Shown: piece by piece, positions 8,756 through 44,113 of the stretch
Layout: every line of letters starts with the position of its first letter
Position numbering within the stretch: the first letter of the stretch is position 1
Source of the DNA: a virus
IMG/VR virus record: IMGVR_UViG_3300044977_000237
Location: 1 to 44,113 of that record
Direction: 5' to 3' (one strand)
DNA: 44,113 nt
Position numbers and translations under genes: made by a program
The notes under the pieces: generated by a model
The model's input: only the letters and a program-made list of their open reading frames with translations
Told to the model about the DNA's origin: nothing
The model's database searches: none

Positions 8756-9433
8756 ATGGCGTCGCCGCGCTTCACCGTGATCTCGACGGGCATCAACGTG
8801 CCCGCGGGTGTGCGCATGCGGTGCATCGAGAGCGTGCGCGCGCAGTTCCCGCCCCCCATCGGCCCGGCGTTCGACCACGTGTACATCGACGCGGCCCAGC
8901 AGCCTGGAGGGCCGCGCGCGCACTTCGCGAACCTCGTCGACGTGATCTCGAAGCTCCCCGATGATCGCATCGTGGCGAGCCTCGACGCAGATGACTGGCT
9001 CGGGCCGCCGAACGCGCTGACCACCGTGGCGCGCTACTTCGCGGCCGGCGCGTGGGTCACGTACGGCTCGTTCAGGTTCGCCGACGGGCGCCGCGGCTGC
9101 CCGAGCGAGTCGTACCTGCCGGGCGAGGACGTGCGGCGCGCGCCGTGGAAGGCCACGCACCTGAAGTGCTTCCGCGCTGGGCTCTTCAAGCGCATCCGGC
9201 ACGAGCACCTCAGGCTCGCGTCGGGCGAGTGGTTGCCGCACGCTCGGGACCTCGCGCTCATGTTCCCGCTCCTCGAGATGGCGGGGCCGCGCACGGCGCA
9301 CGTGATCGAGGAGGTCTACGTGTACAACCTCGCGCTCTCGACGGAGTTCGCTGGCGACGCGGCGACGCACGAGGCCGAGCGCGCGTGCGTGCGCTACGTT
9401 CGCAGCCTGCCGCCGTACGAGGTGCTCCCGTGA
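8756..9433 (+). CDS. Family-2-like glycosyltransferase (225 aa)
   Basis: The start is ATG 8756. The N-terminus (ASPRFTVISTGINVPAGVRM) is the first Rossmann-like strand and loop of GT-A enzymes. Residues about 75-81 (SLDADDWLGPP) hold the DxD-type metal and sugar-nucleotide site. KATHLKCFRAGLFKRI and WLPHARDLALMFPLLEMAG fit the acceptor half of GT2-like phage enzymes. It is the first of three glycosyltransferase-like genes just upstream of terminase and may decorate virion proteins or DNA. It ends in a GTGA overlap. Confidence 0.75.
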   Translation: MASPRFTVISTGINVPAGVRMRCIESVRAQFPPPIGPAFDHVYIDAAQQPGGPRAHFANLVDVISKLPDDRIVASLDADDWLGPPNALTTVARYFAAGAWVTYGSFRFADGRRGCPSESYLPGEDVRRAPWKATHLKCFRAGLFKRIRHEHLRLASGEWLPHARDLALMFPLLEMAGPRTAHVIEEVYVYNLALSTEFAGDAATHEAERACVRYVRSLPPYEVLP

Positions 9434-9513
9434 AGACCTGCCCAGTGTGCCGCGAGATGTTCTACCTCCCTCGCGGTCACGAGGACGAGTGCCGTGGCGA
9501 GGAGAAGACGTGA
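9430..9513 (+). CDS. 27-residue zinc-finger peptide
   Basis: A 28-codon frame (MKTCPVCREMFYLPRGHEDE then C-RGEEKT) begins with GTG overlapping the previous stop and ends overlapping the next GTG. C-P-V-C, a His and a last Cys form a C2HC zinc-binding set. Coupling on both sides argues that it is translated despite its size. Confidence 0.65.
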   Translation: MKTCPVCREMFYLPRGHEDECRGEEKT

Positions 9514-10364
9514 AGATCATCGTCTGCCACGCCGCGTGGGCGCCCGGCCGGAGGGAGAGCTTGCAGCGCCTGCAAGAGGCCCTCGGCGAGGACGTGGTGG
9601 TGAGCCTGTCGAGCGGCCCCGAGCACGCGAGCATCTGGGGGCGGCGCGCGTGGGAATGGGCGGCCCGGCAGGACGAGCACGCGCTGGTGCTCAACGACGA
9701 CGTGATCCCGCACCCCCGGCTCCGCGCCATCTGCGAGGCGATGATCGAGGCCATGCCCGACGAGTGCATCTCGCTGCACACGAACGTGCCCGGCGCCATC
9801 GACGCCGCAGCCGCCGGGCACCATTGGGTGCGCTGCTACTGGTACACGGGGCCCGCGGTCATCCTGCCGGCGGCTCGCGTGCGGTCCCTGCTCGCGTGGC
9901 TCTACCGCTGTCCCTGGCACTTCCAGAGCCGCACGAACGAGGACAACCTCGCGATCCACTGGGCGTGGAGCGAGCAGCGCCCCTTCTGGTGCGCCATCCC
10001 GGCGCCGGTCGACCACGACACCGGCGTGCGCTCGACGCTCGGCTACGATGACCATGCGTGGCGGCGGCCGGCGGTGCCCTGGAGCTCCTACCTGTGGGCC
10101 GACGCCCCGCTCACCGAGCCGGCATGGTGGCGCGCGCCGGTGGCCCCGCCGTGCGCGCCGAACCCGTGGCTCAGCGATGCGACGCTGGAAGCGATGCGGC
10201 GCGTGCTCGTGGAACCGGGCGCGCAGCTCTGCCACTTCTGCCAGGAGCGACAGGGCATCGTGAGCGTGCACCCGAGCCCGAAGGCGCCGAGGCTCTGCTA
10301 CACGTGCGCGATGGGGCTGTGGTCCGCGGCGACGCGGGCAGCACAGGAAGCGAGGACGACATGA
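9510..10364 (+). CDS. Glycosyltransferase-like protein with C-terminal zinc element
   Basis: The 284-residue product starts at GTG 9510. KIIVCHAAWAPGRRESLQRL opens a nucleotide-sugar-type fold, and HALVLNDDVIPHPRL (about residues 58-72) carries the acidic pair expected of a GT-A enzyme of the GT25/GT2 kind. CRCYW-type aromatic segments and the NEDNLAIHWAW block resemble phage glycosyltransferases that read host or virion sugars. The last 50 residues add CHFCQERQG and LCYTCAMG, a probable four-Cys zinc ribbon, an unusual addition. It overlaps the next ATG. Confidence 0.65.
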   Translation: MKIIVCHAAWAPGRRESLQRLQEALGEDVVVSLSSGPEHASIWGRRAWEWAARQDEHALVLNDDVIPHPRLRAICEAMIEAMPDECISLHTNVPGAIDAAAAGHHWVRCYWYTGPAVILPAARVRSLLAWLYRCPWHFQSRTNEDNLAIHWAWSEQRPFWCAIPAPVDHDTGVRSTLGYDDHAWRRPAVPWSSYLWADAPLTEPAWWRAPVAPPCAPNPWLSDATLEAMRRVLVEPGAQLCHFCQERQGIVSVHPSPKAPRLCYTCAMGLWSAATRAAQEARTT

Positions 10365-10819
10365 ACGATCTGCTGATCGTGCGGGCACCTGGCATGGACG
10401 AAGAGAAGCGGGCGAGGCTCATGGCGCAGTTGCCGTCGACGCTCGTGCTGCCCGGGGAGGCCGAGGTCACGTTCGTCGCCCCGCGCCTCCGGCTCATGCG
10501 CGGCCAGGTCGTCGTGCGCGAGCTCGACGCGCCCGACTCCTCGTCGCTCTGGACGCCGGAGCCTGGCGTTCGCCAGGTCAAGACGCACCGGGGCGTCGTG
10601 CTCGGCGTGGGGCCGCCGGCCAGGCTCACCGAGCACCCGTCATCGCCCGAGGTGCCGCACGGGTTCGCGGTGGGCGACGTCGTGCAGTACCACTTCGAGG
10701 CGATGGGTACGCAGGCGGCGCGCACGCGGGCGTGGCTCGACGGCGAGGACGCGGTGTGGCTGCACCAGGCCGAGGTGGACGCCGTGTGGGAGCACGAATG
10801 CGATCGGCCGCTGCGATGA
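10361..10819 (+). CDS. GroES-like co-chaperonin
   Basis: The 152-residue product starts at ATG 10361 (ATGA overlap). Residues about 40-150 follow the Cpn10 pattern: RLMRGQVVVRELDAP (where GroES has L-x-P-x-x-D-R-V-L-V), HRGVVLGVGPPA (GxVxAVGxG), HGFAVGDVVQYHFEA (VGDxVxF) and EDAVWLHQAEVDAVWE (the closing strands). A 40-residue N-terminal extension is unusual. Phage GroES homologues such as T4 gp31 replace host GroES for folding the capsid protein, so a role in capsid assembly is likely, given the late-operon position just before terminase. Confidence 0.72.
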   Translation: MNDLLIVRAPGMDEEKRARLMAQLPSTLVLPGEAEVTFVAPRLRLMRGQVVVRELDAPDSSSLWTPEPGVRQVKTHRGVVLGVGPPARLTEHPSSPEVPHGFAVGDVVQYHFEAMGTQAARTRAWLDGEDAVWLHQAEVDAVWEHECDRPLR

Positions 10820-11550
10820 CCCCGCGGCTCGTCATCGCCACGCCCGTGCGGGCCGCCGAGATGCACGCGGCGAGCGTGAGCCTCGGGTACGCCGAGATGC
10901 TCACCAAGCTCCACCGCCTGCGCCTCACCAGCGAGATCCTGTCCGGCTCGATCACGTTCGGCGCCGACATCGTGAGGGGGCGCAACCGGATCGCCGCGAA
11001 GGTACTGCGCGAGCACCACGACGCGACCCACGTCCTATGGCTCGACGACGACCAGTGGGTCGAGGACGTCGCGATCATCCCCGAGATGATCGCGACGGGG
11101 GCCGACGTGATCGGCGCCCCCTACACCAACAAGCGCCACCCGCTGCGGTGGGTGCATCAGCAGCTCGTCCCGCGCCTAGGCGGAGCGGGCGATGCGATCG
11201 TCGAGCAGGGTCGCGCACTCCTCGAGGTCGCGGGCGTGGGCTTCGGCTTCACCCTCACCAGCGTCGCCGCGCTGGAGCTGCTCAGCGATGGCGAGCGGGT
11301 CTACACGGACCACCCGAACCCGCACAGGGTGGCGAACATCTTCGGGCAGCTCTACTGGCACCCGGGGCTCGATGCGGGCCTCGACGTGCCGCCGGAGGAT
11401 CAGGCGCTGCTGTCCGAGGACTTCTCGTTCTGCCTGCGGTGGAGGCGCCTCGGCGGGCGCGTCTACATCTACGCGAAGGCCGGGCTTGTCCACCACGCTG
11501 GCGCACACGCGTGGACGGCCGCGGAGATGGCCGGGGGCGTCGTCGGGTGA
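10816..11550 (+). CDS. Glycosyltransferase-like protein (244 aa)
   Basis: ATG 10816 overlaps the GroES-like stop. The N-terminus MTPRLVIATPVRAAEMH and the acidic centre HVLWLDDDQWVEDVAIIPEM (about residues 73-92) are typical of GT-A enzymes; ADVIGAPYTNKRHPLRWV and LLSEDFSFCLRWRRLGGRVY match phage and Caulobacter-type glycosyltransferase homologues (the SEDxxFCxRWRxxGGxxY motif). It is probably active. The next gene overlaps as GTGA. Confidence 0.8.
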   Translation: MTPRLVIATPVRAAEMHAASVSLGYAEMLTKLHRLRLTSEILSGSITFGADIVRGRNRIAAKVLREHHDATHVLWLDDDQWVEDVAIIPEMIATGADVIGAPYTNKRHPLRWVHQQLVPRLGGAGDAIVEQGRALLEVAGVGFGFTLTSVAALELLSDGERVYTDHPNPHRVANIFGQLYWHPGLDAGLDVPPEDQALLSEDFSFCLRWRRLGGRVYIYAKAGLVHHAGAHAWTAAEMAGGVVG

Positions 11551-15977: not shown

Positions 15978-17414
15978 ATGTCCCAGCATTCCGTCAAATT
16001 CGAGGAGGCGAAGCGGCACGCGGTCTACCTGCGCGACGGCTACAAGTGCGCGTACACCGGACAGGTGGACACGACCTACACGGGGGTGGGGCTGTCGATC
16101 GATCACATCAAGGCCCGCGCGTCGGGTGGCGCCCCGCAGAACACGAAGCTCTCGCCCGGGACGAACCTGATCACGTCCTCGGCGTCCGCCAACTACGCCA
16201 AGCAGGACAAGACCCCGGCGCAGTGGACCGCGTACCTCGCCGCCAACGAGCCCCCGAAGGGGGGGCTGACCGTCGATTTCAAGGACATTCGGAAGCAGGC
16301 GCGGCAGCGGCTGGACCTGAGGCGGGGCGAGCAGCTCGCCGACCTCGCAAGGGAGGCGCGTGAGGCGAGGGGGCCGCACGGAGAAGAAACCAAGAAGAGC
16401 CGCGCCATCGCGGCGAAGTCCGCGGCGATCGTGGCCAGCTACCAGGCCGAGCAGAAGGCGAAGGCCGAGAAGAAAGCGGGGCCCGGCGTGCGTCACGATC
16501 CCAAGGACGGGCGCTTCCAGCCCGGCAACGAGTCGCGCCGCTACGCGCTACGCACCGGAGAACCGCTCGCGATCAGCGCGGACGCGATCCGCCGCGACGC
16601 GGACGGGTTCTTTGTGATGAGCGGCGGGTCGCCCCCGCCCAACGACGCGCGAGGCACCGTTGCGATCGTCAACGTCCGCGGCGCGCTCCAGCATTGGGCG
16701 TGCGAGTGGGGAGACAGCTATGAGGGGCTCGTGGCGCGCGTCGCGGAGGCGCTCGCGTCGTACCCCTCGTCGGTGCTGCTGCGGATCGACTCCCCAGGCG
16801 GCGTCGTGGCGGGGCTCAACGAGTGCGTGATCCGGCTCCAGCGCATGAGTCGCGAGGCGAAGATCCCGCTCGTCGCGTACATCGACGAGCTGGCCGCAAG
16901 CGCTGCCTACGCGCTCTGCTGCGCGTGCGAGCGCATCCTCTGCCCGCCGAGCGGCATCGCGGGCAGCGTGGGCGTGATCTCGACCATGGTCTCCATGGCC
17001 GCGCGCGACGAGCGCGAGGGCGTGGCCTTCCGGATCATCACATCGGGCAAACGGAAGGCCGACGGGCACCTCCACGTGCCCATCACCGAGGACGCTGTCC
17101 GCGCCGAGACCGCGCGCAACAACGAGCTCGCCGCGCAGTTCTTCGCGCTCGCATCGAAGGCGCGGAGGAGGCCGGCGGCGCGGCTCGAAGGGCTCCAGGC
17201 CGCCATCTACCTCGGGCGCGATGCCAAGCGGGTCGGCCTCGTGGACGAGGTGGTCGGCCTCGACGACGCCCTCCTCGGCCTCGATCGCTCCGCGGTCGGC
17301 GGCGCGCCCCGGCCGGCCCCCAACGAGGGGAACATCACCGACCGGCGGGCGAGGGAGCTTCGCGCCGACGTCTCGCGGCTCCTCAAGGCCGGGGGCGGCT
17401 TGCCCCGCGCTTGA
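15978..17414 (+). CDS. HNH endonuclease fused to S49-type prohead protease
   Basis: One 478-codon frame joins two enzymes. Residues 1-85 form an HNH nuclease: YLRDGYKCAYTGQ, LSIDHIKARASGG (DH about 42-43), NLITSSASANYAKQDKT. Residues about 90-200 are a charged helical linker. Residues about 210-420 are an S49/SppA-ClpP-like serine protease: GTVAIVNVRGAL, LLRIDSPGGVVAGL (about 268), YIDELAASAAYALCCACERI with the nucleophile Ser near 308, and SGIAGSVGVISTMVS. S49 proteases such as lambda gpC mature proheads; HNH proteins often assist packaging terminases. An internal ATG at 16618 could also give protease alone. No ribosome site is obvious at ATG 15978. Confidence 0.85.
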   Translation: MSQHSVKFEEAKRHAVYLRDGYKCAYTGQVDTTYTGVGLSIDHIKARASGGAPQNTKLSPGTNLITSSASANYAKQDKTPAQWTAYLAANEPPKGGLTVDFKDIRKQARQRLDLRRGEQLADLAREAREARGPHGEETKKSRAIAAKSAAIVASYQAEQKAKAEKKAGPGVRHDPKDGRFQPGNESRRYALRTGEPLAISADAIRRDADGFFVMSGGSPPPNDARGTVAIVNVRGALQHWACEWGDSYEGLVARVAEALASYPSSVLLRIDSPGGVVAGLNECVIRLQRMSREAKIPLVAYIDELAASAAYALCCACERILCPPSGIAGSVGVISTMVSMAARDEREGVAFRIITSGKRKADGHLHVPITEDAVRAETARNNELAAQFFALASKARRRPAARLEGLQAAIYLGRDAKRVGLVDEVVGLDDALLGLDRSAVGGAPRPAPNEGNITDRRARELRADVSRLLKAGGGLPRA

Positions 17415-26443: not shown

Positions 26444-27034
26444 GTGGCCTCACCGTCTCCCACGATCTCGCCGATCTCGAACGCGAACGCGTGGATGTAC
26501 TTCCTGCTCGGTGGCATCGTGTCCCCGGGCACCATCGCGCCCGGCGGTATCCACGGGTTCAAACGTGAGACCGGGTGGGACATCAAAAAAGGCAAGGGCA
26601 CGCAGGGCGCCACGCTCACGCTCAAGGACATCCCGCCCATCGAGGGGAAGATCACGCTCAACCTCATCACCGATGCCGACTTCGCGGCTTACGATGCCTT
26701 CGTGGCCAACGTGCTGTCGATCTCTCCGAAGGAGCAGCAGGCACAGGGGCTCCCCATCTATTACCCCGCGTTCTCGTCGATCGGCCTGAGGACGGTTGTC
26801 GTGAAGCACTACACGCCTCCTATCGAGGTCGGCGGCAAGCGCAAGTACCAGGTCGAGATCGAGTTGCTGGAATGGCAGCCGCCCCCCGCCGCATCCGTCG
26901 TGTCCACGGTCACGACCACGGCATCCGGCGCCGCCTCGCCCGGTGGTCCGCCTCGCCCGCCCAACCCGTTGCAGGCGCAGCTCGACGCCGCAAAGGCTGC
27001 CTTCCTCGCGGCCAGTCAGGCGGCGGCGCAGTGA
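26444..27034 (+). CDS. Baseplate/tail-hub adaptor protein (196 aa)
   Basis: The GTG at 26444 lies 2 bases after the tape-measure stop. Residues about 35-145 form a beta-rich globular part (GFKRETGWDIKKGKGTQGAT; TLKDIPPIEGKITLNLITDA; KRKYQVEIELLEW). Then comes a Thr/Gly/Pro-rich linker (STVTTTASGAASPGG) encoded by the 68-bp repeat, and an Ala-rich helix. Position matches the hub adaptor of Mu/P2-like tails (Mu gp43 place). Function is inferred from gene order. Confidence 0.6.
   Translation: MASPSPTISPISNANAWMYFLLGGIVSPGTIAPGGIHGFKRETGWDIKKGKGTQGATLTLKDIPPIEGKITLNLITDADFAAYDAFVANVLSISPKEQQAQGLPIYYPAFSSIGLRTVVVKHYTPPIEVGGKRKYQVEIELLEWQPPPAASVVSTVTTTASGAASPGGPPRPPNPLQAQLDAAKAAFLAASQAAAQ
26900..26967 (+). 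repeat. 68-bp repeat, tail-gene copy
   Basis: These bases are the exact inverse of 3251-3318. Here they are in frame and encode the flexible linker between the globular part and C-terminal helix of the hub adaptor, so this copy is the likely donor. Internally the unit CCGCCTCGCCC occurs twice, separated by GGTGGT. Confidence 0.95.
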
Positions 27035-31584: not shown

Positions 31585-33426
31585 ATGCCCACCACCCAGC
31601 TCACCGCCCTCCAGCTCTTCACCCCGGCGCCGTCGGGCGTGGGCCCGTACGGCACCGGGGGCGGCGCGACGGTCGGCGCGGTGCCGCAGAATCCGGGTAC
31701 CGGGACATGGCTCGGCTCGATGCTGTACATCGCGACCACGGTGCAGCTCCCCACGACGGCGTGGCAGCCGGGCGGGCCCGAGAGGACGATCCTTGCGACG
31801 GAGGCGGTGTGCTTCGCGCTGTCCGACGCCGTGATCTCGCAGATGGCGCAGGGCGGATTCTTGCAGCCCGCGGCGACCGGCACCGTCACGTACACGACGC
31901 CGCAGGGTCAGACGGTGACGGCGCCCGTCACGCCCGACCCGAGCAACCCCGCACAGAACCCGACGGGCGCGCCGGGCTACCTCGACCTCCTCGCGGCCAA
32001 CGTCTACGACGTCGAGCGGCTCGACGCGAGCTACGCCGCCGGCCCGCTCGCCATCGTGAAGCTCTCCGCGGGCACGCTCACCTACGCCGGTGGCGCGTAC
32101 CACGTGGGGAACGTCCTCTCGGGGGCCACCTACGCGAACGCGGCCAACCTCTCGATCCCTGCGAGCGCGAGCGCTGGCGGCGGCATCGCGGCCATCACGC
32201 CCGGCGTCACCACGACGATCACGACCACGGGCGCGCACGGCCTCGTGGTCGGCGCGAGCATCTACCTCCAGGTGCCGACCTCGAGCGGCATCACGGGGCT
32301 CGCGGGCGTCTTCGCGCAAGTGTCGGCCGTCACCACCACCACGTTCCTCGTGGGCGTGGTGACCTCGGGCACCTACACGAGCGGGGGTGCGGTCTACACC
32401 TGCACGGTCGCGACGATGATCGCCGACCTCATCGGCATCGGGAGCAACGCCGGCCCGGGGCTGGTCACGACCACGATCACCCAGAACGCCAACGTGTTTG
32501 CGTCGAACCTCGTGGGGTGGAGCGGCGCCAACTGGGAGAGCAACCCCGCACTCGCGGGCCGCTGCGTGCTCTCCCTCGCCGCGCGCTCGCCCGACGGTCC
32601 CTCGCAGGCGTACGAGTACTTCGCGCTCACCGCCGCGCAGATTCTCGCCGCCGAGACGCCCCCGGTCGCGCTCGCAGCCGGACCCATCACGCAGGCGGCG
32701 GAGTTCTCCACGCCCGGGACCGGCATCGTAACCACGGTCGTGGCGTCCGCGTCGCCGGTGTCGTCGGTGCTCGGCCAGCCGGTGACGCCTGGTGCGGCTG
32801 GGCTCGCGGTGACGGGCGTGTCCCTAGCGGCGCTGGCGGTCGTCACCGTCGCGGCCTCGCTCGGCCTCACCTCGTCCGCCTTCACGGTGACCATCTCGGG
32901 CGTGCTCGGGCCGGCCGTCAACGGGACCTTCGTCGCGACCTACGTCTCCTCGACGAGCTTCTCGATCCCCGTGAACACCTCGGCCGGCGCGAGCTATGCG
33001 GGCGGCGGCACCGTCGAGGGGGGCGACCTCGGCCAGGTCGACGCGATCATCCAGCAGAACTGCGTGCCCGACAACACGACGGCGTTGACCGTCTCGGCGC
33101 TCGCGCTGCCGATCGTCGTGGCCGCCACGGTCCTGGTGCCCGCGGCGTATGTCACCGCGTACCAGCTCGCGGCGGTGACGCAGCTCGGCGTGCAGCTCGC
33201 CTCCTACGGCATCGGCGGGGCCACGGCCGGCGTGACCGAGGTCTCCTGGAACGACATCGTGGGCGCGCTCGAAGACGCCGGCATCCCCGCGCCCGGGCAA
33301 GCCTCGTACGCGCACGTCCAGAGCCTCTCGCTGAACGGAGGGGGCACGGGCGCCGGCGTCGCCTTCGTCTCAAACCTGTACCTCGCGCTCCTCGCGACGC
33401 CGTCCATCACGGTGGTGGGCACGTGA
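31585..33426 (+). CDS. Baseplate J-like protein (Mu gp47 type) with inserted beta modules
   Basis: The 613-residue product has the gpJ layout at both ends: PERTILATEAVCFALSDAVI and PGYLDLLAANVYDVERLDAS in the N-terminal part, and VSWNDIVGALEDAGIPAPGQ near the C-terminus. Between them are Gly/Thr-rich inserts, one with the FCCH-like pattern (TTITTTGAHGLVVGASIYL). The TGTVTYTTPQGQTVTA segment is encoded by the 49-bp repeat shared with recT. It builds the baseplate wedge. Overlaps the next gene as GTGA. Confidence 0.78.
   Translation: MPTTQLTALQLFTPAPSGVGPYGTGGGATVGAVPQNPGTGTWLGSMLYIATTVQLPTTAWQPGGPERTILATEAVCFALSDAVISQMAQGGFLQPAATGTVTYTTPQGQTVTAPVTPDPSNPAQNPTGAPGYLDLLAANVYDVERLDASYAAGPLAIVKLSAGTLTYAGGAYHVGNVLSGATYANAANLSIPASASAGGGIAAITPGVTTTITTTGAHGLVVGASIYLQVPTSSGITGLAGVFAQVSAVTTTTFLVGVVTSGTYTSGGAVYTCTVATMIADLIGIGSNAGPGLVTTTITQNANVFASNLVGWSGANWESNPALAGRCVLSLAARSPDGPSQAYEYFALTAAQILAAETPPVALAAGPITQAAEFSTPGTGIVTTVVASASPVSSVLGQPVTPGAAGLAVTGVSLAALAVVTVAASLGLTSSAFTVTISGVLGPAVNGTFVATYVSSTSFSIPVNTSAGASYAGGGTVEGGDLGQVDAIIQQNCVPDNTTALTVSALALPIVVAATVLVPAAYVTAYQLAAVTQLGVQLASYGIGGATAGVTEVSWNDIVGALEDAGIPAPGQASYAHVQSLSLNGGGTGAGVAFVSNLYLALLATPSITVVGT
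31874..31922 (+). repeat. 49-bp repeat, baseplate J copy
   Basis: The reverse complement occurs at 41094-41142 with one mismatch (T31908 versus G). Here it encodes TGTVTYTTPQGQTVTA within the N-terminal third of the J protein, probably the donor site. Confidence 0.92.
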
Positions 33427-35870: not shown

Positions 35871-36265
35871 ATACCCGCATCGCCCAGCGGGACGCAGCCG
35901 AACACATCGGGGCCCACGGCCTCGCACGTCTCGCCCTTGAGCCGGCAATCGTTCCCGCACGTGGAACAATTCGGGTCGCTGGTGAGCGAGTCAACGCAGC
36001 CGAGACCGTTGCAGTTGCCGGTCTGTGGCTCGCAGACCATGGCGGGGGCATCGCTCCCGGCATCCTCGGGCGGCGTGTCGATTACCACCACGTAGCAGCC
36101 CGTGAGCAGGAAGAGCAGGGCGGTCAGGCGCGTGATCAGGGCTCGCGCTCCGGTGGCAGGGTGGTCGGCCGCTCCACGGGTGGCGCGGGCCGCAGGTACG
36201 CAGGCGGCGGCACGCCGAGGTGGCGATGGTCGCAGGCCCGCCTTGCCGCTCTTGATCGTCGCCAT
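35867..36265 (-). CDS. Cys-rich lipoprotein, Myxococcota-like
   Basis: Two starts are possible. ATG 36265 has a perfect AGGAGG site but gives a 42-residue basic extension. CTG 36139, with GGAG 8 bases upstream, gives an ideal lipoprotein signal, ITRLTALLFLLTGC, with lipobox LTGC. The mature part begins YVVVIDTPPEDAGSDAP and has DPNCSTCGNDCRLKGETCE, a pattern common in Myxococcota surface lipoproteins. A membrane lipoprotein from a phage suggests superinfection exclusion or surface change; an outer spanin is a weaker option. It lies downstream of a terminator. Confidence 0.65.
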   Translation of the reverse strand: MATIKSGKAGLRPSPPRRAAACVPAARATRGAADHPATGARALITRLTALLFLLTGCYVVVIDTPPEDAGSDAPAMVCEPQTGNCNGLGCVDSLTSDPNCSTCGNDCRLKGETCEAVGPDVFGCVPLGDAGI

Positions 36266-36282
36266 CGCGTCCTCCTAGCCGG

Positions 36283-36310
36283 AAAGGCCCGCCCCTTTCG
36301 AGGGCGGGCC
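36283..36310 (-). terminator. Rho-independent terminator
   Basis: On the minus strand GGCCCGCCC, a 7-base loop and GGGCGGGCC (36286-36310) are followed by TTT. It closes the operator-controlled transcription unit just after the 53-residue gene. Confidence 0.8.
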
Positions 36311-36316
36311 GGGTGC

Positions 36317-36478
36317 CTACTGCATCACCTTCGGGAGGGGCTCTCCGCTCGCCCTCGACCATGCTCGGGCCATCGCGAGGGCGGCGGCCCGGTCCTCCGG
36401 GGTCTCCGCCAGAATCCACCGACGCCAGACCGCCGTCCACTGCACGCTCTTGTTCGCCATCCTGCTCGTCTTCTTCAT
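36317..36478 (-). CDS. 53-residue protein under operator-promoter 1
   Basis: Translation gives MKKTSRMANKSVQWTAVWRR, then WILAETPEDRAAALAMARAW and a short tail ending KVMQ. The ATG at 36478 is 6 bases from the -10 box. It is a small basic helical protein, preceded by a strong palindromic operator and followed by a terminator, so it is a self-contained regulated unit. Role unknown. Confidence 0.65.
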   Translation of the reverse strand: MKKTSRMANKSVQWTAVWRRWILAETPEDRAAALAMARAWSRASGEPLPKVMQ

Positions 36479-36482
36479 GAGG

Positions 36483-36513
36483 ATACTGTAGCGCCCGGCG
36501 CTACAGTATGCAA
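36483..36513 (-). promoter_or_regulatory. Operator-promoter, copy 1
   Basis: Minus strand: TTGCAT (36508-36513), 17 bases, TACAGT (36485-36490). The spacer and -10 box sit in a perfect palindrome with 13-base arms (ATACTGTAGCGCC / GGCGCTACAGTAT) around one base. A dimeric repressor there would occlude polymerase. It is nearly the same as copy 2 at 37794-37824. Confidence 0.82.
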
Positions 36514-36517
36514 CAGG

Positions 36518-36781
36518 TTATTTCTGGCGACTCGTCGATTTCTCAGCGCGCTGGGCCCGCTGGGCCGCGACCCACCCCCGGAGCCCGGCCCGCGTGAGGA
36601 GGTCGTGCAGGGTCGTCTCGTGCATCGGGGGCTCCGCGGCCGCCGCCGCCGCGCGCACGTTGAGCGCCCCATCCTCGTCACGATGGGCGCGCAGCAGGGC
36701 ACGGAGCCGCGCCTGTGCCAGCGCGAGCGTGGCGGGGTCGCCCTGGCCGGCGGCCACGAGCAGGGAGAGGGGGTGGGCCAT
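36518..36781 (-). CDS. Hypothetical protein (87 aa)
   Basis: ATG 36781 follows a GGTAGGT stretch. The sequence is helical and Ala/Arg-rich (SLLVAAGQGDPATLALAQAR; LRALLRAHRDEDGALNV; ETTLHDLLTRAGLRGWVAAQ). The last part could form a short helix-turn-helix. It lies in the leftward accessory cluster, downstream of operator-promoter 2. Confidence 0.5.
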   Translation of the reverse strand: MAHPLSLLVAAGQGDPATLALAQARLRALLRAHRDEDGALNVRAAAAAAEPPMHETTLHDLLTRAGLRGWVAAQRAQRAEKSTSRQK

Positions 36782-36786
36782 GGCAC

Positions 36787-37047
36787 CTACCCCAGCAGCT
36801 CGGCCCCGAGCGAGTCCCACCTCGATGCGAAGGCGAGGGCGCGCTCCGTTGCGTCGACCGCGAAGCGCCCCACGGAGAGATCGAGGATGACGTCGCAGCG
36901 GTCGAGGGGCGTGCCCTTCTCGGCGAAGCGCTCCCGGGTCTGTTTGGCAACGGCGGCTCGTCCTCGGGCGTCGCCCTTGCCATAGATGACGCAGCCCTCG
37001 GCATCGAGGACCGAGACGGTGACGGTGTGGTGTGCGAGAGTCGTCAT
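36787..37047 (-). CDS. Hypothetical protein (86 aa)
   Basis: ATG 37047 has GGAGG 5 bases upstream, which decides it over ATG 37059. The product alternates strands and helices (HHTVTVSVLDAEGCVIYG; ARGRAAVAKQTRERFAEKG; DVILDLSVGRFAVDATERAL). No family recognised. It belongs to the leftward accessory cluster. Confidence 0.6.
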   Translation of the reverse strand: MTTLAHHTVTVSVLDAEGCVIYGKGDARGRAAVAKQTRERFAEKGTPLDRCDVILDLSVGRFAVDATERALAFASRWDSLGAELLG

Positions 37048-37101
37048 GGGTGCCTCCAACGTTTCAGGCCCGGGGCTCGAAGCCTACCGGGCGCTTCGCC
37101 T

Positions 37102-37509
37102 TCATCGTCGCCTCGGGGGGCGACGCGCTTCGACGCCGAGCGCGAGGAGCAGGGCGACGAGGAGATCGCCATGGGCGATCTCGCGCGAGCTCCCTTCGAC
37201 TCGCAGCATCCGCTCCCGCCCCCGCTTGGCGAACCGGAGCGCGCGGCGGGTGGGCGTCCGGCTCGCGATGGTCTCGTCGGCCAGGACGCCGAACGCCACC
37301 GCGAGATCGGCGAGGAGACGGCGGGCGCGTTTCTCGGCAGCCACACGCGCCGCGCAGGGCGGGCAGCGATGCCGGGTAGCGCCCTCGCCCTCCCGGGGCT
37401 GGGCGCAATCCTGGCAGAGCCCAGCGGAGAGGCGGCGGCGGTGCAGCGCCGCCTTGTTGCGCCGTTTCCTCGCCGCCTCCGCATCGTCGGCCCTCGCCGC
37501 CCCGCTCAC
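37102..37509 (-). CDS. Basic zinc-ribbon-like protein (135 aa)
   Basis: GTG 37509 overlaps the previous stop. The first half is basic with four Cys in pairs (RKRRNKAALHRRRLSAGLCQ, DCAQP, HRCPPCAARV), a probable zinc ribbon seen in phage DNA-binding proteins. The second half is helical (LLADLAVAFGVLADETIASR). Possibly a DNA-binding regulator, and a candidate ligand of the two operators. Confidence 0.55.
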   Translation of the reverse strand: MSGAARADDAEAARKRRNKAALHRRRLSAGLCQDCAQPREGEGATRHRCPPCAARVAAEKRARRLLADLAVAFGVLADETIASRTPTRRALRFAKRGRERMLRVEGSSREIAHGDLLVALLLALGVEARRPPRRR

Positions 37510-37739
37510 GCCGGGGCGTTCTGGGGGGCGTCGTAGACGCGCGCCACGCCCTCTGCGAACGAGAGCAGCACGTCCGCCATGCGACCCTCGCTGGTGTGGT
37601 GGCCGGGGCCCATGAGCGCCCCTGCGCTCGCCCCCACGCTCGCCCCCACGGAGATGCTGCGGCCGTGCAGGCGGAGCGTGGTGCCGGGCGTGATAGACAG
37701 CGAGCGGGTCGTGTGATCGTACGTGGGGGTCATGGTCAT
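37506..37739 (-). CDS. First gene of the accessory cluster (77 aa)
   Basis: ATG 37739 has a GAGAGGAG site. The sequence has a beta-rich N-terminal half (YDHTTRSLSITPGTTLRLHG), a Gly/Ser/Ala-rich turn and a helical end (MADVLLSFAEGVARVYDA). It is transcribed from operator-promoter 2 with a leader of about 50 bases. Confidence 0.6.
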   Translation of the reverse strand: MTMTPTYDHTTRSLSITPGTTLRLHGRSISVGASVGASAGALMGPGHHTSEGRMADVLLSFAEGVARVYDAPQNAPA

Positions 37740-37793
37740 GGTCGTGCTCCTCTCGGGATTGTATTCGGCGCGGCTCCTCGCCGCTCACAAGAG

Positions 37794-37824
37794 ATACTAT
37801 AGCGCCGGGCGCTACACTACGCAA
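37794..37824 (-). promoter_or_regulatory. Operator-promoter, copy 2
   Basis: Minus strand: TTGCGT (37819-37824), 17 bases, TATAGT (37796-37801). The palindrome (arms ATACTATAGCGCC and GGCGCTACACTAC, slightly imperfect) matches copy 1 at all but a few positions over about 30 bases. It drives the 77-residue gene and those below it. Confidence 0.82.
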
Positions 37825-37866
37825 GGGGCTCGTGTCGATTTTCTTCGCCGTGCTAGCCTGCCGGGC

Positions 37867-38106
37867 ATGAGCTGGCTCGACGCCTTCCTCCAGGCCGGCA
37901 CGAACGGCAACCTCGCCCTCTCGGGCAACCTGAGCGTGGCCGGGACGACGAGCCTGGCCGGTCTGGGGGGGCTCACCGACTCGACGGGCGGCACCCCCGG
38001 CACGACGCTGGCAGCCATCGCCGCGGGCTCGAGCTACTCGCAGGCGGACCTCGTGGCCGTAAAGAACGCGCTCGCGACCCTCGCGGCGCAGGTCAACAAG
38101 CTCTAG
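37867..38106 (+). CDS. Small fibre-associated trimer protein (79 aa)
   Basis: The product MSWLDAFLQAGTNGNLALSG continues with VAGTTSLAGLGGLTDSTGGT and a helical end SYSQADLVAVKNALATLAAQ. This is the pattern of short phage fibre-tip or head-fibre proteins with a beta stalk and a C-terminal coiled coil. It restarts the rightward direction after the accessory cluster. Confidence 0.6.
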   Translation: MSWLDAFLQAGTNGNLALSGNLSVAGTTSLAGLGGLTDSTGGTPGTTLAAIAAGSSYSQADLVAVKNALATLAAQVNKL

Positions 38107-38117
38107 TAGGAGATCGC

Positions 38118-38399
38118 ATGGGCCTCCCCGTCATCGACTCGCCTCTCGCGCCCCCGCAAACGGGCGCGATCGTCAACTGCACCGCCGCCGCGCAGCTCTC
38201 GGCGGTCACCACGGAGGCGTACCTCTGGGTCGCCAACCTCGGCGCGACGACGCTGACCGTCGGGGGCTCCGCCGTCACGGCGGGCGCAGGCATCGGCATC
38301 CCTGCCGGCGTCGTGGCATCGTGGCGCGTCCTCAACCCGTCGCAATGGTACGGCGTCGGCTCCGCGTCCGTGCAGGTCGCGACGACGGCGGCGAGCTGA
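38118..38399 (+). CDS. Small virion-associated protein (93 aa)
   Basis: ATG 38118 is preceded by TAGGAG. The all-beta sequence (GAIVNCTAAAQLSAVTTEAY; LWVANLGATTLTVGGSAVTA; VVASWRVLNPSQWYGVG) resembles small phage proteins coded near tail fibres. Stop and next start overlap (TGATG). No family named. Confidence 0.5.
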   Translation: MGLPVIDSPLAPPQTGAIVNCTAAAQLSAVTTEAYLWVANLGATTLTVGGSAVTAGAGIGIPAGVVASWRVLNPSQWYGVGSASVQVATTAAS

Positions 38400-39883
38400 T
38401 GGGCCCCCAGTTCTCGGGCCCGGGAGCCGCTGGCGTCTCGGCGACGCAGGCGGCCATCGCGGCGGGGTACGCCGCGCAGGCGACGTGGTACATCGACCCG
38501 GCCAACGTTACCGGCCTCGCGTCGGACAGCAACACGGGGCTGACGTCCTCCACGCCGCTGCTCACGTTCGGCGCGCGCGCGCAGCGCATCAATCGGCTGC
38601 CCGTCGCTGGCAGCACGATCTACCTGCTGTCCTCGCAGACGACACAGGCCGACCCATTCGCTGGCGACCTGTGGGTGAACGACGCGGGGCTCCTTACTGG
38701 CGACCTCGGGAAGACGACGCTGCACGCCTCGACGGGCGCGACGGGGATCACCGCCCAGAGCGGCAACACGTGGTGGGAGATCACCGACACCTCCGTGTCC
38801 TCGTGGACCACCTATCTCTTCCAGCGGATCCGCTGGACGGCGGGCGCGGCGGCGGGCTGCACCAGCTTCGTGGTGGCCGATCTCGGATCCCATGTCGCGC
38901 GCATCACCGCGCCGACCCTCCTCTCGAACACGCTGCCGACTTCCTCGTCGCCCTGGGTGCCGACGCCTACCTACGCGACGCCGGCGACCGGCGACGCCTA
39001 CGTCATCGAGTCGCTGCCGCAGATCGCAGCCGCGACCTTCGACACCCTCGCGATCGGTCCCGGAATCTCGGCGGTCGACCTCGGCCTCCTCGTCGCCTCG
39101 ATCTCGTTCTCCTCCATGGGGGCGAGCTTCTTCAACAACGCGATGCTGGGCAACCCGCAGAGCTATCCTGGCGTCGCGTTCTCGGGCTGCAACCTCGACT
39201 ACATGACGGGGGCATACATCGCGTTCGGCTGCCTCTCGGGCCCGTTCGATCCGCTCGGAGGCTCCGCGATGTACCTCTATGGGTGCGGGATCGTCGGGGG
39301 CCCGGATGTTGGCACCGGCGCCTATCTCGACCTCAACAACACGGTCGTCGAATGCACGGCGGCGGGCGCATGGGCCAACGCTGCCGGCGCCGTCGTCCTG
39401 CCGGGAGGATGGCTCGACATGGACGGCGTCGGCATCTACGACGCGACGGGCCCGGGCCTGACGGTGCAGTACGGGGGCAACGCTGATGTCGACGCTGGCG
39501 GCCTCGCGGGATCCGGCAACTCGACCTATGGCGCGAACGTGCAGCTCGGCGGGCAGATGCAGCTCAACGCCACGCCCACCATCACGGGGACGAGCGGGAA
39601 CCTGCTGGACGGCGCCGTGGCGCGTGCGTGGGCGAGCATTGGCGCGACGCTCGTGGGCCCGCGTCCGTGGTCGGCCAGCGGGAGCTTCACGCTCCAGGGT
39701 GCGACCGTGGTCAACGTCACGGTGGCGGGCATGGTCGCGACGGACAGCGTCAGCGTGACCTGCACGGCGAGCGGTGGCACGCGCTCGCTGGCGCCGATCA
39801 TCGTGCGCACCGCGGGCGGCTTCTCATTTCAGGGCGTCGCGCTCGATACCTCGACGTACGCCTACAGCGTGACGAGGGTCTGA
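38399..39883 (+). CDS. Tailspike/beta-helix receptor-binding protein (494 aa)
   Basis: The start ATG 38399 overlaps the preceding stop. ATWYIDPANVTGLASDSNTG then STPLLTFGARAQRIN is the entry pattern of right-handed beta-helix tailspikes (dp-x-g-nDsNtGtsxxPlxTf). Repeated short strands with Gly and Asn turns follow (CNLDYMTGAYIAFGCLSG; LDLNNTVVECTAAG). It likely recognises or degrades a surface glycan. It is the last rightward gene. Confidence 0.65.
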   Translation: MGPQFSGPGAAGVSATQAAIAAGYAAQATWYIDPANVTGLASDSNTGLTSSTPLLTFGARAQRINRLPVAGSTIYLLSSQTTQADPFAGDLWVNDAGLLTGDLGKTTLHASTGATGITAQSGNTWWEITDTSVSSWTTYLFQRIRWTAGAAAGCTSFVVADLGSHVARITAPTLLSNTLPTSSSPWVPTPTYATPATGDAYVIESLPQIAAATFDTLAIGPGISAVDLGLLVASISFSSMGASFFNNAMLGNPQSYPGVAFSGCNLDYMTGAYIAFGCLSGPFDPLGGSAMYLYGCGIVGGPDVGTGAYLDLNNTVVECTAAGAWANAAGAVVLPGGWLDMDGVGIYDATGPGLTVQYGGNADVDAGGLAGSGNSTYGANVQLGGQMQLNATPTITGTSGNLLDGAVARAWASIGATLVGPRPWSASGSFTLQGATVVNVTVAGMVATDSVSVTCTASGGTRSLAPIIVRTAGGFSFQGVALDTSTYAYSVTRV

Positions 39884-39893
39884 GATCCGCGTC

Positions 39894-39919
39894 ACGCGAT
39901 CCTGCGCGCAGAATCGCGT
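39894..39919. terminator. 26-bp near-perfect palindrome at the convergent end
   Basis: ACGCGAT (39894-39900) and ATCGCGT (39913-39919) flank a CTGCGCGCAG core with one mismatched pair. It lies 11 bases after the last late gene, facing the end of the leftward early operon. A bidirectional stop for transcription is likely, though no T tract is present. The 39920-40023 interval shows no certain gene; a 25-codon GTGA-coupled frame (39950-40027, minus) is possible. Confidence 0.55.
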
Positions 39920-40023
39920 CTGCGGCTGGTCGGGTCGAGTGCTCGACGTTCACCGTGTGGGCGAGAACTCGGCGGCGCGACCATTCGCGCACGCCCGGAT
40001 CCTCGTCGGCGACCCGCCCGCGC

Positions 40024-40314
40024 TCACGGCAGCCTCAGGTCCCGGCGGTCGTACGCCAAGCAGCCGGGGGGGCACCGCGCCTGTCCTCCCACCGAGCCGC
40101 TCGCCGCTTGGCTGTCGCGGATGAAGGCCTCCTCGCAGGCTGACAGGTGGCGGCAGAAGCGGCGGCGTCGCGAGAAGAGGCCGGCGCGGTCGTCGGCCAC
40201 GAGGAGGGAGGCGCGGACAGCGGGCGCGGCCCCGCGAGCTCGTCGAGATGCAGCGCGCAGCGGGACGTGGCCGTACAGGAGCAGCTCATCGGATCGCCCG
40301 GCCTCACGACCCAC
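40024..40314 (-). CDS. Cys-containing hypothetical protein (96 aa)
   Basis: GTG 40314 overlaps the end of the preceding gene. It contains LLLYGHVPLRAAS, SLLVADDRAGLFSRRRRF and the Cys pattern CRHLSACEEAFI ... ARCPPGCLAY, seen in small phage proteins with a possible zinc site. It is the last clear gene of the leftward early operon. Confidence 0.5.
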   Translation of the reverse strand: MGREAGRSDELLLYGHVPLRAASRRARGAAPAVRASLLVADDRAGLFSRRRRFCRHLSACEEAFIRDSQAASGSVGGQARCPPGCLAYDRRDLRLP

Positions 40315-40534
40315 CTCGCAAGAGCGCCAGCACGTCCTCGCGGTCGAGGTAGTGGATCGCGCGGCTGCCCTCGCAGAAGAACCTGCGCACGCGCCATCCG
40401 GCCAGCGCCTCGATGGCCGCGAGCAGCCGCTCGCGCTCTTCGCGCAGCGCGTGCGCCACCAGGTCGACCTCGTGCCCGGTCGCGCTCTCGGGCACGAGCA
40501 GCGCCGCCCGCCTGCGGTCCTCGTCGCGGCTCAC
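40304..40534 (-). CDS. Hypothetical protein (76 aa)
   Basis: GTG 40534 overlaps the previous stop (GTGA). ALLVPESATGHEVDLVAHAL, REERERLLAAIEALAGWRVR and HYLDREDVLALLRG suggest a compact alpha/beta protein. No family recognised; coupling supports translation. Confidence 0.55.
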   Translation of the reverse strand: MSRDEDRRRAALLVPESATGHEVDLVAHALREERERLLAAIEALAGWRVRRFFCEGSRAIHYLDREDVLALLRGGS

Positions 40535-40776
40535 GACCCGCCTCCGAGCTTGGCTGCGAAGTCGCAGAGAGCGGCGCGCCGACACGGGCACCGCTCGGTG
40601 CCGCAGCCGCATCGAGCGGTGCCGGCCTCCGCGAGCAGGACCCCACGGATGGCCTCGCGGTCGGCGCGGATGGCGCGGGCGAACGTGCCCGACGTGTCGC
40701 CGATGATGTCCTCTACCTCGACGTCCAGGAGGACGATCTCCGCCATCGCCTCCGGCGTCTCGATGGGCGCGCTCAC
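40531..40776 (-). CDS. Small protein with Cys-cluster (81 aa)
   Basis: GTG 40776 overlaps the previous stop. An acidic strand (AEIVLLDVEVEDIIG) and helix (TFARAIRADREAIRGVLLAE) precede TARCGCGTERCPCRRAALC, five Cys that could bind zinc. Another of the operon's small Cys-rich products. Confidence 0.55.
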   Translation of the reverse strand: MSAPIETPEAMAEIVLLDVEVEDIIGDTSGTFARAIRADREAIRGVLLAEAGTARCGCGTERCPCRRAALCDFAAKLGGGS

Positions 40777-41078
40777 GCTGCGCCTCCGCGGCCGTGCGTC
40801 GCACGCCACGCCTCCCGCAGGCGCTCCCCGCTCTCAGGCGAGCGGAGCAGGCCCAGGTCGTCGAGGCAGGCATCGCACGCCTCCCCGGCCGGCAGCGCAC
40901 CGCAGTAGCAGCGCTCGGTGGGCACCCACACCGAGCCCTCGCGATCGACGGTGGCCGCTTCGGGGGCCCTCATGCGCGCGAGCGTCAGCTCCTGCGCGAC
41001 GGCGAGCCATCGGTCGAGGGCGCGCGCGGCGAGGAACGCGCCAACGGCGGCGAGCAGGTAGAGGATGGCGGCGATCAT
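40773..41078 (-). CDS. Single-pass membrane protein with zinc motif (101 aa)
   Basis: ATG 41078 overlaps the recT stop. The N-terminus IAAILYLLAAVGAFLAARAL is a transmembrane helix. The soluble part has CYCGALPAGEACDACLDDLG, a probable four-Cys zinc knuckle, and ends in a basic helix (RLREAWRATHGRGG). A membrane-tethered zinc protein behind recT is unusual; a holin role seems unlikely with one helix but cannot be excluded. Confidence 0.6.
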   Translation of the reverse strand: MIAAILYLLAAVGAFLAARALDRWLAVAQELTLARMRAPEAATVDREGSVWVPTERCYCGALPAGEACDACLDDLGLLRSPESGERLREAWRATHGRGGAA

Positions 41079-42028
41079 CGCGTCCCTGCTGCGGCCGTCA
41101 CCGTCTGCCCCTGCGGCGTCGTGTACGTGACGGTGCCGGTCGGCTCGTACTCCGGCTCGGCCGCAGGAGCGGGCGGCGGCATCGGCTTCCCTTCGTTGCG
41201 CGCGCGGATGGCCTTGTCGATGAGCTCCGCGAACTTGGTGTCCGCCGGGATCTGGAAGCTCCCTTCCGAGGTCTCTCGCAGCGCCGCTGAGAGCAGCGGC
41301 GAGCGGGGAACGTTCTCCAGTGCGCGCTTGATCGCCGTCTTGCGCGCCATCGCCGCATAGTTGCCCGACCACGGCGACGCGCCGGAAGGAGCCGTCGAGA
41401 AGTGCCTGAACCACTCGACGTCCTCCTGCGTCAGCACCTCGAGGACGCGCCCTTGCGTCGTGGTGTCGATCACGCAGTAGGCGTAGGCGAGCAGTTCTCG
41501 CTCGGGCACGCGGGTGTCCCCGCTCCACGGCCGGCGCACCGCCTCCCCGCGCCGCAGCGCCTTCTTGTGGCGGATCATCTTCGACGGGATGTCGTAGTCG
41601 AAGAGCCCGTCGTCCACGTCGGCCCAGAACACGGTGCCCGCGTACGCGTCCTTGATGAAGCCGCTGCGGTACGCGAGGGCGAGCAAACCTCGGGGCCCGA
41701 TGACGAGCTTCGCCTCCTGAGCGAACGGGTAGACGTAGGCGTGCTCGTCCACATCGAGGTCCAGATAGAGGCAGGACAGCGCCGCCTCGGCGATGCTCGC
41801 GGCGGTCACGTTGTCGGCCTTGTCCCGCCGCATCGCTTCTGCGTCGATGCGCTGCGAGACGCGGCACGCCATCGCGACGGCGCGCGTGACCTTCTCCATC
41901 CCGTCCTGCGGGAACAGGGCGGCGAGCTCGCGAGCTCGGGCGCGGAAGAGGCTCCTGATCTCCCCCTCGCGCGGGCTTCTGGGCGGCGCGCGTTCGGGTG
42001 CTTCGTTCGTGGTCGGCATCGTCGTCAT
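41075..42028 (-). CDS. recT: RecT-family single-strand annealing protein
   Basis: The 317-residue product starts at ATG 42028 behind GAGGAGAGA. RecT features follow: ASIAEAALSCLYLDLDVDEH, AKLVIGPRGLLALAYRSGFI, AYAYCVIDTTTQGRVLEVLT, and SPWSGNYAAMARKTAIKRAL. It anneals complementary strands in phage recombination. The last 16 residues or so (TGTVTYTTPQGQTVTA) come from a 49-bp patch shared with the baseplate J gene. The frame is open upstream to CTG 42337 (103 more codons), adding a Cys-rich module, ICAPCSRGACDACLG and ERCAHRCYLDG; a longer zinc-RecT form is possible. Confidence 0.9.
   Translation of the reverse strand: MTTMPTTNEAPERAPPRSPREGEIRSLFRARARELAALFPQDGMEKVTRAVAMACRVSQRIDAEAMRRDKADNVTAASIAEAALSCLYLDLDVDEHAYVYPFAQEAKLVIGPRGLLALAYRSGFIKDAYAGTVFWADVDDGLFDYDIPSKMIRHKKALRRGEAVRRPWSGDTRVPERELLAYAYCVIDTTTQGRVLEVLTQEDVEWFRHFSTAPSGASPWSGNYAAMARKTAIKRALENVPRSPLLSAALRETSEGSFQIPADTKFAELIDKAIRARNEGKPMPPPAPAAEPEYEPTGTVTYTTPQGQTVTAAAGTR
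41094..41142 (-). repeat. 49-bp inverted repeat, recT copy
   Basis: The minus strand of this stretch equals 31874-31922 with one mismatch. It forms the 3' end of recT and keeps the donor reading frame, so both proteins share TGTVTYTTPQGQTVTA. RecT proteins do not normally end this way. Confidence 0.92.
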
Positions 42029-42333
42029 GGTCTCTCCTCTCGTGGAAGATGTTGTCGGGCTTGACGTCGCGGCGGCCGGCACGGGCGGGCCGTCGAGGTA
42101 GCAGCGGTGGGCGCAGCGCTCCGTGCTGCCGATGGCGACCACGCCGAGGCAGGCATCGCAGGCGCCGCGCGAGCAGGGAGCGCAGATGCCATCGGCGGCC
42201 CCCTCTCCGGCAGCGGGCACCGGAGAGGGGGAGGGGCTGGTGCTGTGCGACGGAAGCGTGGTCCCGCTTCTCGTCGCCGCGTCTGGCCCCTTGCCGCCGT
42301 GCCCGGGCGGCTCCGCCAGAGTTCTGTTGTCCG

Positions 42334-42513
42334 TCAGGGATCGTGCTCCGTCAGGCAGGCTGCGATCCTCTCCGCGTACTCGATCATCTCGATCCGGTCG
42401 CGCTGCGTCGCCGGCCCGATGGGCAGCTCCATCCGCAGCGGCGGGGTGCCCGTCTGCGCCGTCCGGATGGTCACCTCGTTCGCGTTCTCGTCGATCTCTA
42501 CTCGATAGCGCAT
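42334..42513 (-). CDS. Small hypothetical protein (59 aa)
   Basis: ATG 42513 follows AGAGAGG by 8 bases. MRYRVEIDENANEVTIRTAQ, LRMELPIGPATQRDRIEMIE and YAERIAACLTEH look like a genuine small alpha/beta protein. The stop TGA overlaps a CTG that could start the zinc-RecT form (CTGA). No family named. Confidence 0.65.
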   Translation of the reverse strand: MRYRVEIDENANEVTIRTAQTGTPPLRMELPIGPATQRDRIEMIEYAERIAACLTEHDP

Positions 42514-42585
42514 CGTATCCACCTCTCTGCGCCTGCTCGGCGCCGTCGGCCTGCTCGGCGCCGTCGACCCTGCCCCTGCGGGCCG

Positions 42586-42783
42586 TCAGAACGGGATCGG
42601 TTCCGGGCAGTCTCTCGCCCACGGCGTCCCGCAGTACAGGCACCCCTGCGTGTGCCCCGCCCCCATCGCCTCCCGCTCCCACAGCAGGTGCCGGCGGCTC
42701 GGGTCGTGACGGCGCTCCGCTCGCCGTCGGCGCAGCCTGTGCCGGGCCCACCACATGGGCGACGCCCCTCGTCGTCTCGCCAT
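42586..42783 (-). CDS. Small Cys-containing basic protein (65 aa)
   Basis: ATG 42783 has a GGAGGAG ribosome site. The N-terminal half is very basic, and the C-terminus GCLYCGTPWARDCPEPIPF is a short Cys motif seen in phage early proteins. It overlaps, in another frame, a coding-like frame that stays open (see 42784-43053). Confidence 0.6.
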   Translation of the reverse strand: MARRRGASPMWWARHRLRRRRAERRHDPSRRHLLWEREAMGAGHTQGCLYCGTPWARDCPEPIPF

Positions 42784-43053
42784 CGTCTCCTCCGTACTCG
42801 GCGCCGACCCTTCGGGCCGTCGCGGTCGCGTGCTCCAGCTCGTCGCGCGTCGGGGGGGGCAGCGCGTCGTAGCGCTCGCCGAGCACGCGTCGCACGATGC
42901 TCTCCGCCTCGCCCGGCGCCGGCGTCGGGTAGCCCGGCACCGCGCCGCCGCACGCCAACGACCACATGGTGAGCGCCAGCGACGCCTCTTGGTCGCCGAG
43001 CAGCTCGGCGACGGCGTAGGAGGCCTCGGTGAGCAGTTCGCCCGCGGGCCGGG
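42784..43053 (-). CDS. Coding-like segment without clear start or stop
   Basis: In the same frame as recT and the FEN-like gene, this part reads LLTEASYAVAELLGDQEASL, then MWSLACGGAVPGYPTPAPGE and YDALPPPTRDELEHATATAR, good protein sequence. ATG 42967 is a possible internal start; upstream only CTG is available. No stop occurs until 41075. Either translation enters from upstream or an indel has erased the gene limits. Confidence 0.4.
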
Positions 43054-43308
43054 CTAGCCGAACGGCAGCGTTCCCTGTCGCGCCCGAATCGCCGCGATCT
43101 CCTCCTCGCGCTGGGCTACGGCCCGGATCGCAGCCCGCGCCGCCAGCAGGTACTCTCGCGACGGATCCTTGCGGATTTCTTGCCCCTCCCGGTAGGTCCG
43201 CCAGACCTCGCGCTGCTCCGGTTTCGGGACCATCGCCCAGTGCTTCCCGCACATCAGCAGCCGCGGGGGCACCTCGACCGTGCAGTTCTCCGCGTGACAC
43301 AGATGCAT
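43054..43308 (-). CDS. Zinc-motif early protein (84 aa)
   Basis: ATG 43308 has GAGAGGAG upstream. MHLCHAENCTVEVPPRLLMC and GKHWAMVPKPEQREVWRTYR, then SREYLLAARAAIRAVAQREE, match a small family common in phage early regions (CxxxxC ... PxxLMCxxHWxxVP). Probably a zinc-bound protein of unknown role. It is nested in a different frame from the long open frame around it. Confidence 0.75.
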   Translation of the reverse strand: MHLCHAENCTVEVPPRLLMCGKHWAMVPKPEQREVWRTYREGQEIRKDPSREYLLAARAAIRAVAQREEEIAAIRARQGTLPFG

Positions 43309-43986
43309 TCTCTCGCTCCTCTCTCGCCCCGCAGGGCACCGCGTCCACCGGCCGCAGTGAGCACGCCGCGAGCGCTCGCAGGATCTGCCTACCGCCAGCC
43401 GCGCCAGCCACACGGAGACGCATCACCTGGCCCTCCGTGAGCCCCGGCAGCCGCGCGTCGAGACAGTCGATCGCCGCCTTCACCGCGACGCTCGCGGAGC
43501 CGTAACCGCGCAGCGTGGCGCGCCGGAGCTTGCCGCCCGCAACGAGCGCGCGGGCCGTCTCCGCGCCGATGTCGTCGAGCATCGCGAGCGCGGCGATCTC
43601 GCAGGCGAGCGAGGGGTCATAGCCAAGACGCGCACGTACGGCGGCCGCGTCCTCGACGGTCCACGACCACCCACCCGCGCGCTCGCGGAGGTCCCGCAGG
43701 ATGCCCACACAGGGGCCCGCGAGGCTCGCGAGCGAGGTGCGGCCGGAGGCGATGTCGACGACGGTCAATCCCGCGCCGCACGCGAGCATGGCGAGCGCGT
43801 CCCTCCCGCTCCCCGCTCGGCCGCCGAGCTCCACCCGCTCTCCGTCAGCGAGCGGCACGTGAGCGCCGGCCGGGTACGCGCCGGGCTCGACCACCTCCAC
43901 GCCACGGAGGGCAGCGAGCGCGCCACGAAACGGCCGCCAGGCGGGGTCGGGCCAGGCGACGTGGCGCTCCGTCCACCCGTCGACGA
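43309..43986 (-). CDS. FEN-like 5'-3' exonuclease homologue, 3' part (starts at 202)
   Basis: Continuing from base 1, the frame reads AWRPFRGALAALRGVEVVEP, a region RDALAMLACGAGLTVVDIAS (where FENs have EADDxxAxLA and VxSxDxD), GGWSWTVEDAAAVRARLGYD, PSLACEIAALAMLDDIGAET (H3TH-like) and VKAAIDCLDARLPGLTEGQV. Order and spacing fit FEN-type nucleases, yet the acidic ligands are replaced (EADD becomes GSGRD, SGDxD becomes SGRT). Coding character fades near 43310, but no stop appears in frame before 41075. It may have been the exonuclease partner of RecT, now inactive or structural. Confidence 0.5.
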
Positions 43987-44113
43987 GGTCGCGCCGCCAC
44001 GGGCGCCCGGCGGCCTCGCTCACGACCACGGCATGGTCGTGTCCACCGGCGAGAGCCGCGACGAGCGCGGGCAGCCGCTCGGCAGCCGCCTCGCCCGCGC
44101 GCGCAGCCTCGGC
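43987..44113. repeat. Terminal direct repeat, right copy
   Basis: Identical to bases 1-127; see the left copy. It carries the same part of the FEN-like gene. Confidence 0.93.

Follow-up and report, generated by a model that had tools for sequence, protein, structure and literature searches.

The window, meaning the whole stretch of DNA analyzed, comprises the 44,113 bases of virus record IMGVR_UViG_3300044977_000237 and has a GC content of 71%. The repeat finder detected a 127-bp repeat at both of its ends, as a complete phage contig that is circular or end-redundant should show. The plus strand codes for terminase, portal, protease, major head protein, tail sheath, tape-measure-like, and baseplate proteins, and the RecT gene is located on the minus strand. 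Apart from the terminal repeat, self-BLAST returned only two strong repeats in the window, both of them inverted, and the genes and segments that they involve are as follows.

2926-3354, plus strand: recipient of the 68-bp patch, a PHROG family 12600 gene shortened to 142 aa (family members about 200-235 aa)
3251-3318, plus strand: 68-bp patch, starting inside the invariant Trp codon of the GGW motif
3319-3354, plus strand: probable in-frame C-terminal remnant LARGAQIVRAA-stop (11 residues), resembling family ends such as MARSAREARAA-stop
26444-27034, plus strand: tail protein gene (196 aa), donor of the 68-bp patch, with a 68% identical homologue in contig L008
26900-26967, plus strand: 68-bp donor segment, 68/68 identical, inverted
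31585-33426, plus strand: baseplate J-like gene (613 aa), donor gene, with a weak Pfam Baseplate_J match and homologues 62% and 54% identical
31874-31922, plus strand: donor segment within J, with its aligned counterpart in place in J relatives
41075-42028, minus strand: recT, RecT-family single-strand annealing protein (317 aa; PF03837, PHROG 148, fold match 7ub2), recipient of the 49-bp patch
41094-41142, minus strand: J-derived 49-bp patch coding for TGTVTYTTPQGQTVTA at the recT 3' end (self-BLAST match)

Other parts of the genome deserve brief mention. The head maturation protease gene (15978-17414) has an N-terminus that matches HNH/endonuclease VII families and, judging from that match, possibly encodes an endonuclease-protease fusion. 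Near-identical, operator-like palindromes of 26-32 bp (TACTGTAGCGCCCGGCGCTACAGTAT type) lie 1.3 kb apart at 36482-36513 and 37793-37824, and positions 36000-44113 gave no DNA match among named phages. The structural genes are roughly 50-80% identical to those of contig L008 (record G001); the tail and head modules of the two are related despite very different base compositions (52% GC in L008 vs 71%), whereas their early regions differ. Relative to the structural genes, block 8768-11550, which includes a glucosyltransferase-like gene, is flipped with respect to G001:35815-38784.

The first repeat pair (3251-3318 and 26900-26967) is identical at all 68 positions (E 1e-28), which bears out the companion patch cited in the original prediction, and the second (31874-31922 and 41142-41094), seen by both self-BLAST and the repeat finder, agrees at 48 of 49 positions (E 8.5e-17), with the one mismatch that had been predicted. 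Exact inverted 20- and 22-mers in the window were confined to these patches, so the k-mer search of both strands that had been suggested as a way to find more of them returned only the two already known; in direct orientation, no 20- or 22-mers were shared across the window beyond the terminal repeat. These E values and exact matches rule out chance similarity for both patches, as had been argued from there being two cases. The remaining non-terminal repeat pairs are near the chance level, and weaker matches, such as older degraded patches might leave, were no commoner within the window than against other GC-rich phages. For both patches, the flanks at the donor and recipient sites are unrelated on both sides. 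The two patches have no sequence in common, and no exact copies of their cores were found elsewhere in IMG/VR; an in-frame mobile repeat of the palindromic-element type is thereby rejected. More generally, a dedicated system (a diversity-generating retroelement or an in-frame mobile repeat) that writes tail sequence into gene ends would agree with the position of both patches near gene 3' ends with the frame kept, but the mutual unrelatedness of the patches, the lack of further copies in IMG/VR, the background level of older degraded patches in the window, and the absence of a reverse transcriptase among the larger ORFs scanned render it most improbable.

Assignment of the recT product to the RecT family follows from both profile searches (Pfam PF03837, E 1e-16; PHROG 148, E 8e-27) and fold, its predicted model matching the solved RecT 7ub2 (Foldseek, E 2.9e-7). 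The profile of RecT relatives matches 7ub2 across profile positions 5-244, and the 49-bp patch sits beyond this conserved core in the variable RecT tail. The C-terminus reads ...EPEYEP-TGTVTYTTPQGQTVTA-AAGTR-stop; the patch is in frame and stops 15 bp short of the stop codon. J and RecT thus read the same peptide, and the frame is kept as predicted, but RecT does not end with it, as had been proposed: the peptide is near the C-terminus and is followed by the five residues AAGTR. The sole mismatch, T at J position 31908 against G on the recT strand at 41108, gives GGT/GGG and is a synonymous Gly change. The AlphaFold model folds the J-derived residues into a small beta-hairpin with strands at 299-303 and 309-313 (block pLDDT about 81), preceded by a disordered linker (residues 281-296; pLDDT mostly below 50). 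The predicted model of the hairpin in J was of too low confidence for use.

The J-like protein matches Pfam Baseplate_J weakly, just under the curated cut-off (E 3.6e-4), and carries the peptide in the context ...PAA-TGTVTYTTPQGQTVTA-PVT.... Two other contigs contain J homologues, 62% and 54% identical, whose alignments run through the segment and read SGTVTYTTPEGVTVV and NGTVTYTTLQGQTVTV there. The peptide is absent from all 50 distinct RecT homologues taken from IMG/VR, and when the DNA collected for comparison was searched for the motif in six frames, it turned up in J genes and this recT only. Because the J relatives keep the segment and the RecT homologues lack the peptide, comparison of the sequences confirms the predicted polarity, in which the segment is ancestral in J, J is the donor, and recT is the recipient. 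The retention of the segment in J relatives rules out RecT as donor to J, and its absence from all 50 homologues rules out the proviso attached to the original prediction, a tail naturally present in RecT. The homologues found were only 21-38% identical to this RecT, and a single-protein query of viral and bacterial collections returned no close relatives.

The second recipient is established to be shortened relative to its family. Its product matches PHROG 12600 over residues 2-110 only (E 4e-35), whereas the 37 homologues examined all have 202-236 codons including the stop. A VEQGxYGHxARKxTWLY block, which follows GGW in nearly all 37, has been lost, and about 23 patch codons stand in place of roughly 90 family codons, leaving about 70 codons net missing; resident DNA was thus replaced. 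The 11 residues after the patch are more similar to family C-termini than are random window peptides (nominal p about 0.009) and are probably the surviving family C-terminus. The simplest reading of the alignment is that roughly 285 bp was swapped for 68 bp in frame. The tail gene at 26444-27034 is the donor, since its L008 homologue aligns across the donor region and keeps it in place, although the region itself is loosely conserved. At the entry point, donor and recipient have the GG of the invariant Trp codon in common, or GGGT if a Val codon originally came next, and this is a plausible microhomology; the exit junctions of the two patches showed no proven microhomology. With about a third of a conserved protein removed, the 68-bp patch was more damaging than the 49-bp patch.

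Loss from one recipient and a changed variable tail in the other also bear on whether the recT patch was selected. Tails of the RecT homologues (L020-L099) are hypervariable in sequence but consistently acidic, with at least four Asp/Glu among the last 25 residues (median 7 in the 50 homologues); with two, the tail of this RecT is the least acidic of the 51 compared, and the 49-bp patch may have taken the place of an acidic tip or capped it. The J hairpin could then have been kept as a useful RecT C-terminus, e.g., by removing an acidic tip that would control ssDNA or SSB interactions. The self-contained hairpin in the model and the synonymous nature of the only difference from J agree with such an adaptive swap; nevertheless, we consider it very unlikely, as a test based on one synonymous change among 16 codons lacks power, the sequence of RecT tails is free to vary, and the deletion of a conserved gene part by the 68-bp patch indicates tolerance rather than benefit. 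Rather than targets, the two recipients are better seen as gene ends under no constraint or as losses that could be tolerated. Similarly, the predicted flow from tail gene to early gene stands insofar as both donors are tail genes, but as a rule it would rest on two events.

The presence of two inverted patches in a single genome is striking next to 39 other phage records (1.55 Mb in total, 33 with RecT), which contained no inverted patch among dispersed repeats of at least 30 bp and at least 92% identity; the four direct dispersed repeats in these records were 2-3 kb apart in three cases and near contig ends in one. Both patches end at most 39 bp from a stop codon overlapping the start of the next gene, a closeness to gene ends that two random sites would reach in about 0.3% of cases on the gene map of another phage. 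Such placement fits survival at dispensable sequence and is unexpected for a laboratory artifact. An amplification or assembly artifact is nonetheless the main rival: chimeras generated by MDA, which are 85% inverted and have intervening deletions and short complementarity (PMC1855051), might have become the assembled consensus. Both patches are indeed inverted, as predicted, although two of two is not significant (p about 0.25 if orientations are equally likely); no inverted patch occurs in the other 39 records, and the record is a virus contig that may derive from an amplified library. However, an MDA chimera has a single junction, an identical inverted copy, and usually a span of <10 kb, whereas each patch here requires two junctions that return to a single locus, one of the spans measures 23.6 kb, and one copy carries a substitution that would be unexpected of an artifact unless a strain variant was the source. 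Considering also that the frame is kept in both patches and that both lie so near to overlapping stop and start codons, we judge an artifact unlikely.

In our view, both patches probably arose recently by intragenomic copying of short patches and were close to neutral. While the phage replicated or recombined, a 3' end or a stray single strand of a late tail gene would pair with the recipient at a few matching bases, about 50-70 nt would be copied or ligated in, and the strand would return to the recipient locus; in one of the two events, it would have passed over roughly 285 bp of old sequence. Either template switching in replication or the annealing of stray single strands at microhomologies might accomplish this. 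Both frame-keeping products presumably survived as spare sequence was hit, i.e., the variable RecT tail in one case and a gene able to do without its C-terminal part in the other. That a rare process should have left two events in one genome is surprising and counts against copying as the explanation.

SPDIR work from 2016 reportedly described short segments, sometimes of intragenomic origin, replacing resident DNA via two illegitimate junctions. The patches resemble such events in being short and intragenomic, with unrelated flanks on both sides, two illegitimate junctions, and, in gene 2926-3354, replacement of resident DNA, but SPDIR, which would proceed through a single-stranded donor intermediate and be suppressed by host nuclease or recombination functions, concerns bacterial genomes, whereas the patches are in a phage. 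A passage of PMC7192050 names short-patch substitution of the SPDIR type. Template-switch mutations and templated insertions (yeast, human, and E. coli quasipalindromes) likewise copy in short inverted segments with possible microhomology at entry; they differ in using local hairpins, whereas the donors here are 9 and 24 kb away. Hairpin-driven switching was rejected: relative to shuffled sequence, the J donor folds better (z -2.5), but the 68-bp donor shows no such advantage (z +1.8).

The phage's own RecT may have helped in forming the patches. It is a natural suspect because RecET, as stated in a passage of PMC2327257 citing Shiraishi et al. 2002, promotes illegitimate recombination at matches of 5-13 bp; a RecT-family protein and, potentially, pairing at very short matches are the points of likeness, whereas RecET is not known to make two-junction patches and involvement of RecT here is an inference. 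The 33 RecT-carrying records have no inverted patch, and RecT alone is therefore no explanation. A stronger version, in which RecT drives patch writing, rewrote its own C-terminus, and thereby lost the acidic tip of its relatives, seems quite unlikely to us. If true, annealing by the altered RecT may be less selective, and this would account for two recent patches in this genome alone.

Under the preferred reading of short-patch copying, the patches are new natural cases of an event type already known, their polarity being unusually clear, and not a new genetic element. Although phage genomes are mosaic and their gene ends change quickly, the elementary steps seldom come into view; in this one genome, two recent steps can be traced as to donor, recipient, direction, size, and effect, which gives a direct view of how new ends can arise in phage genes. 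Should they be confirmed in unamplified DNA, patches of this kind would be a route to new C-termini for phage proteins, and the effect of RecT-type proteins on the rate of patch formation would become testable.
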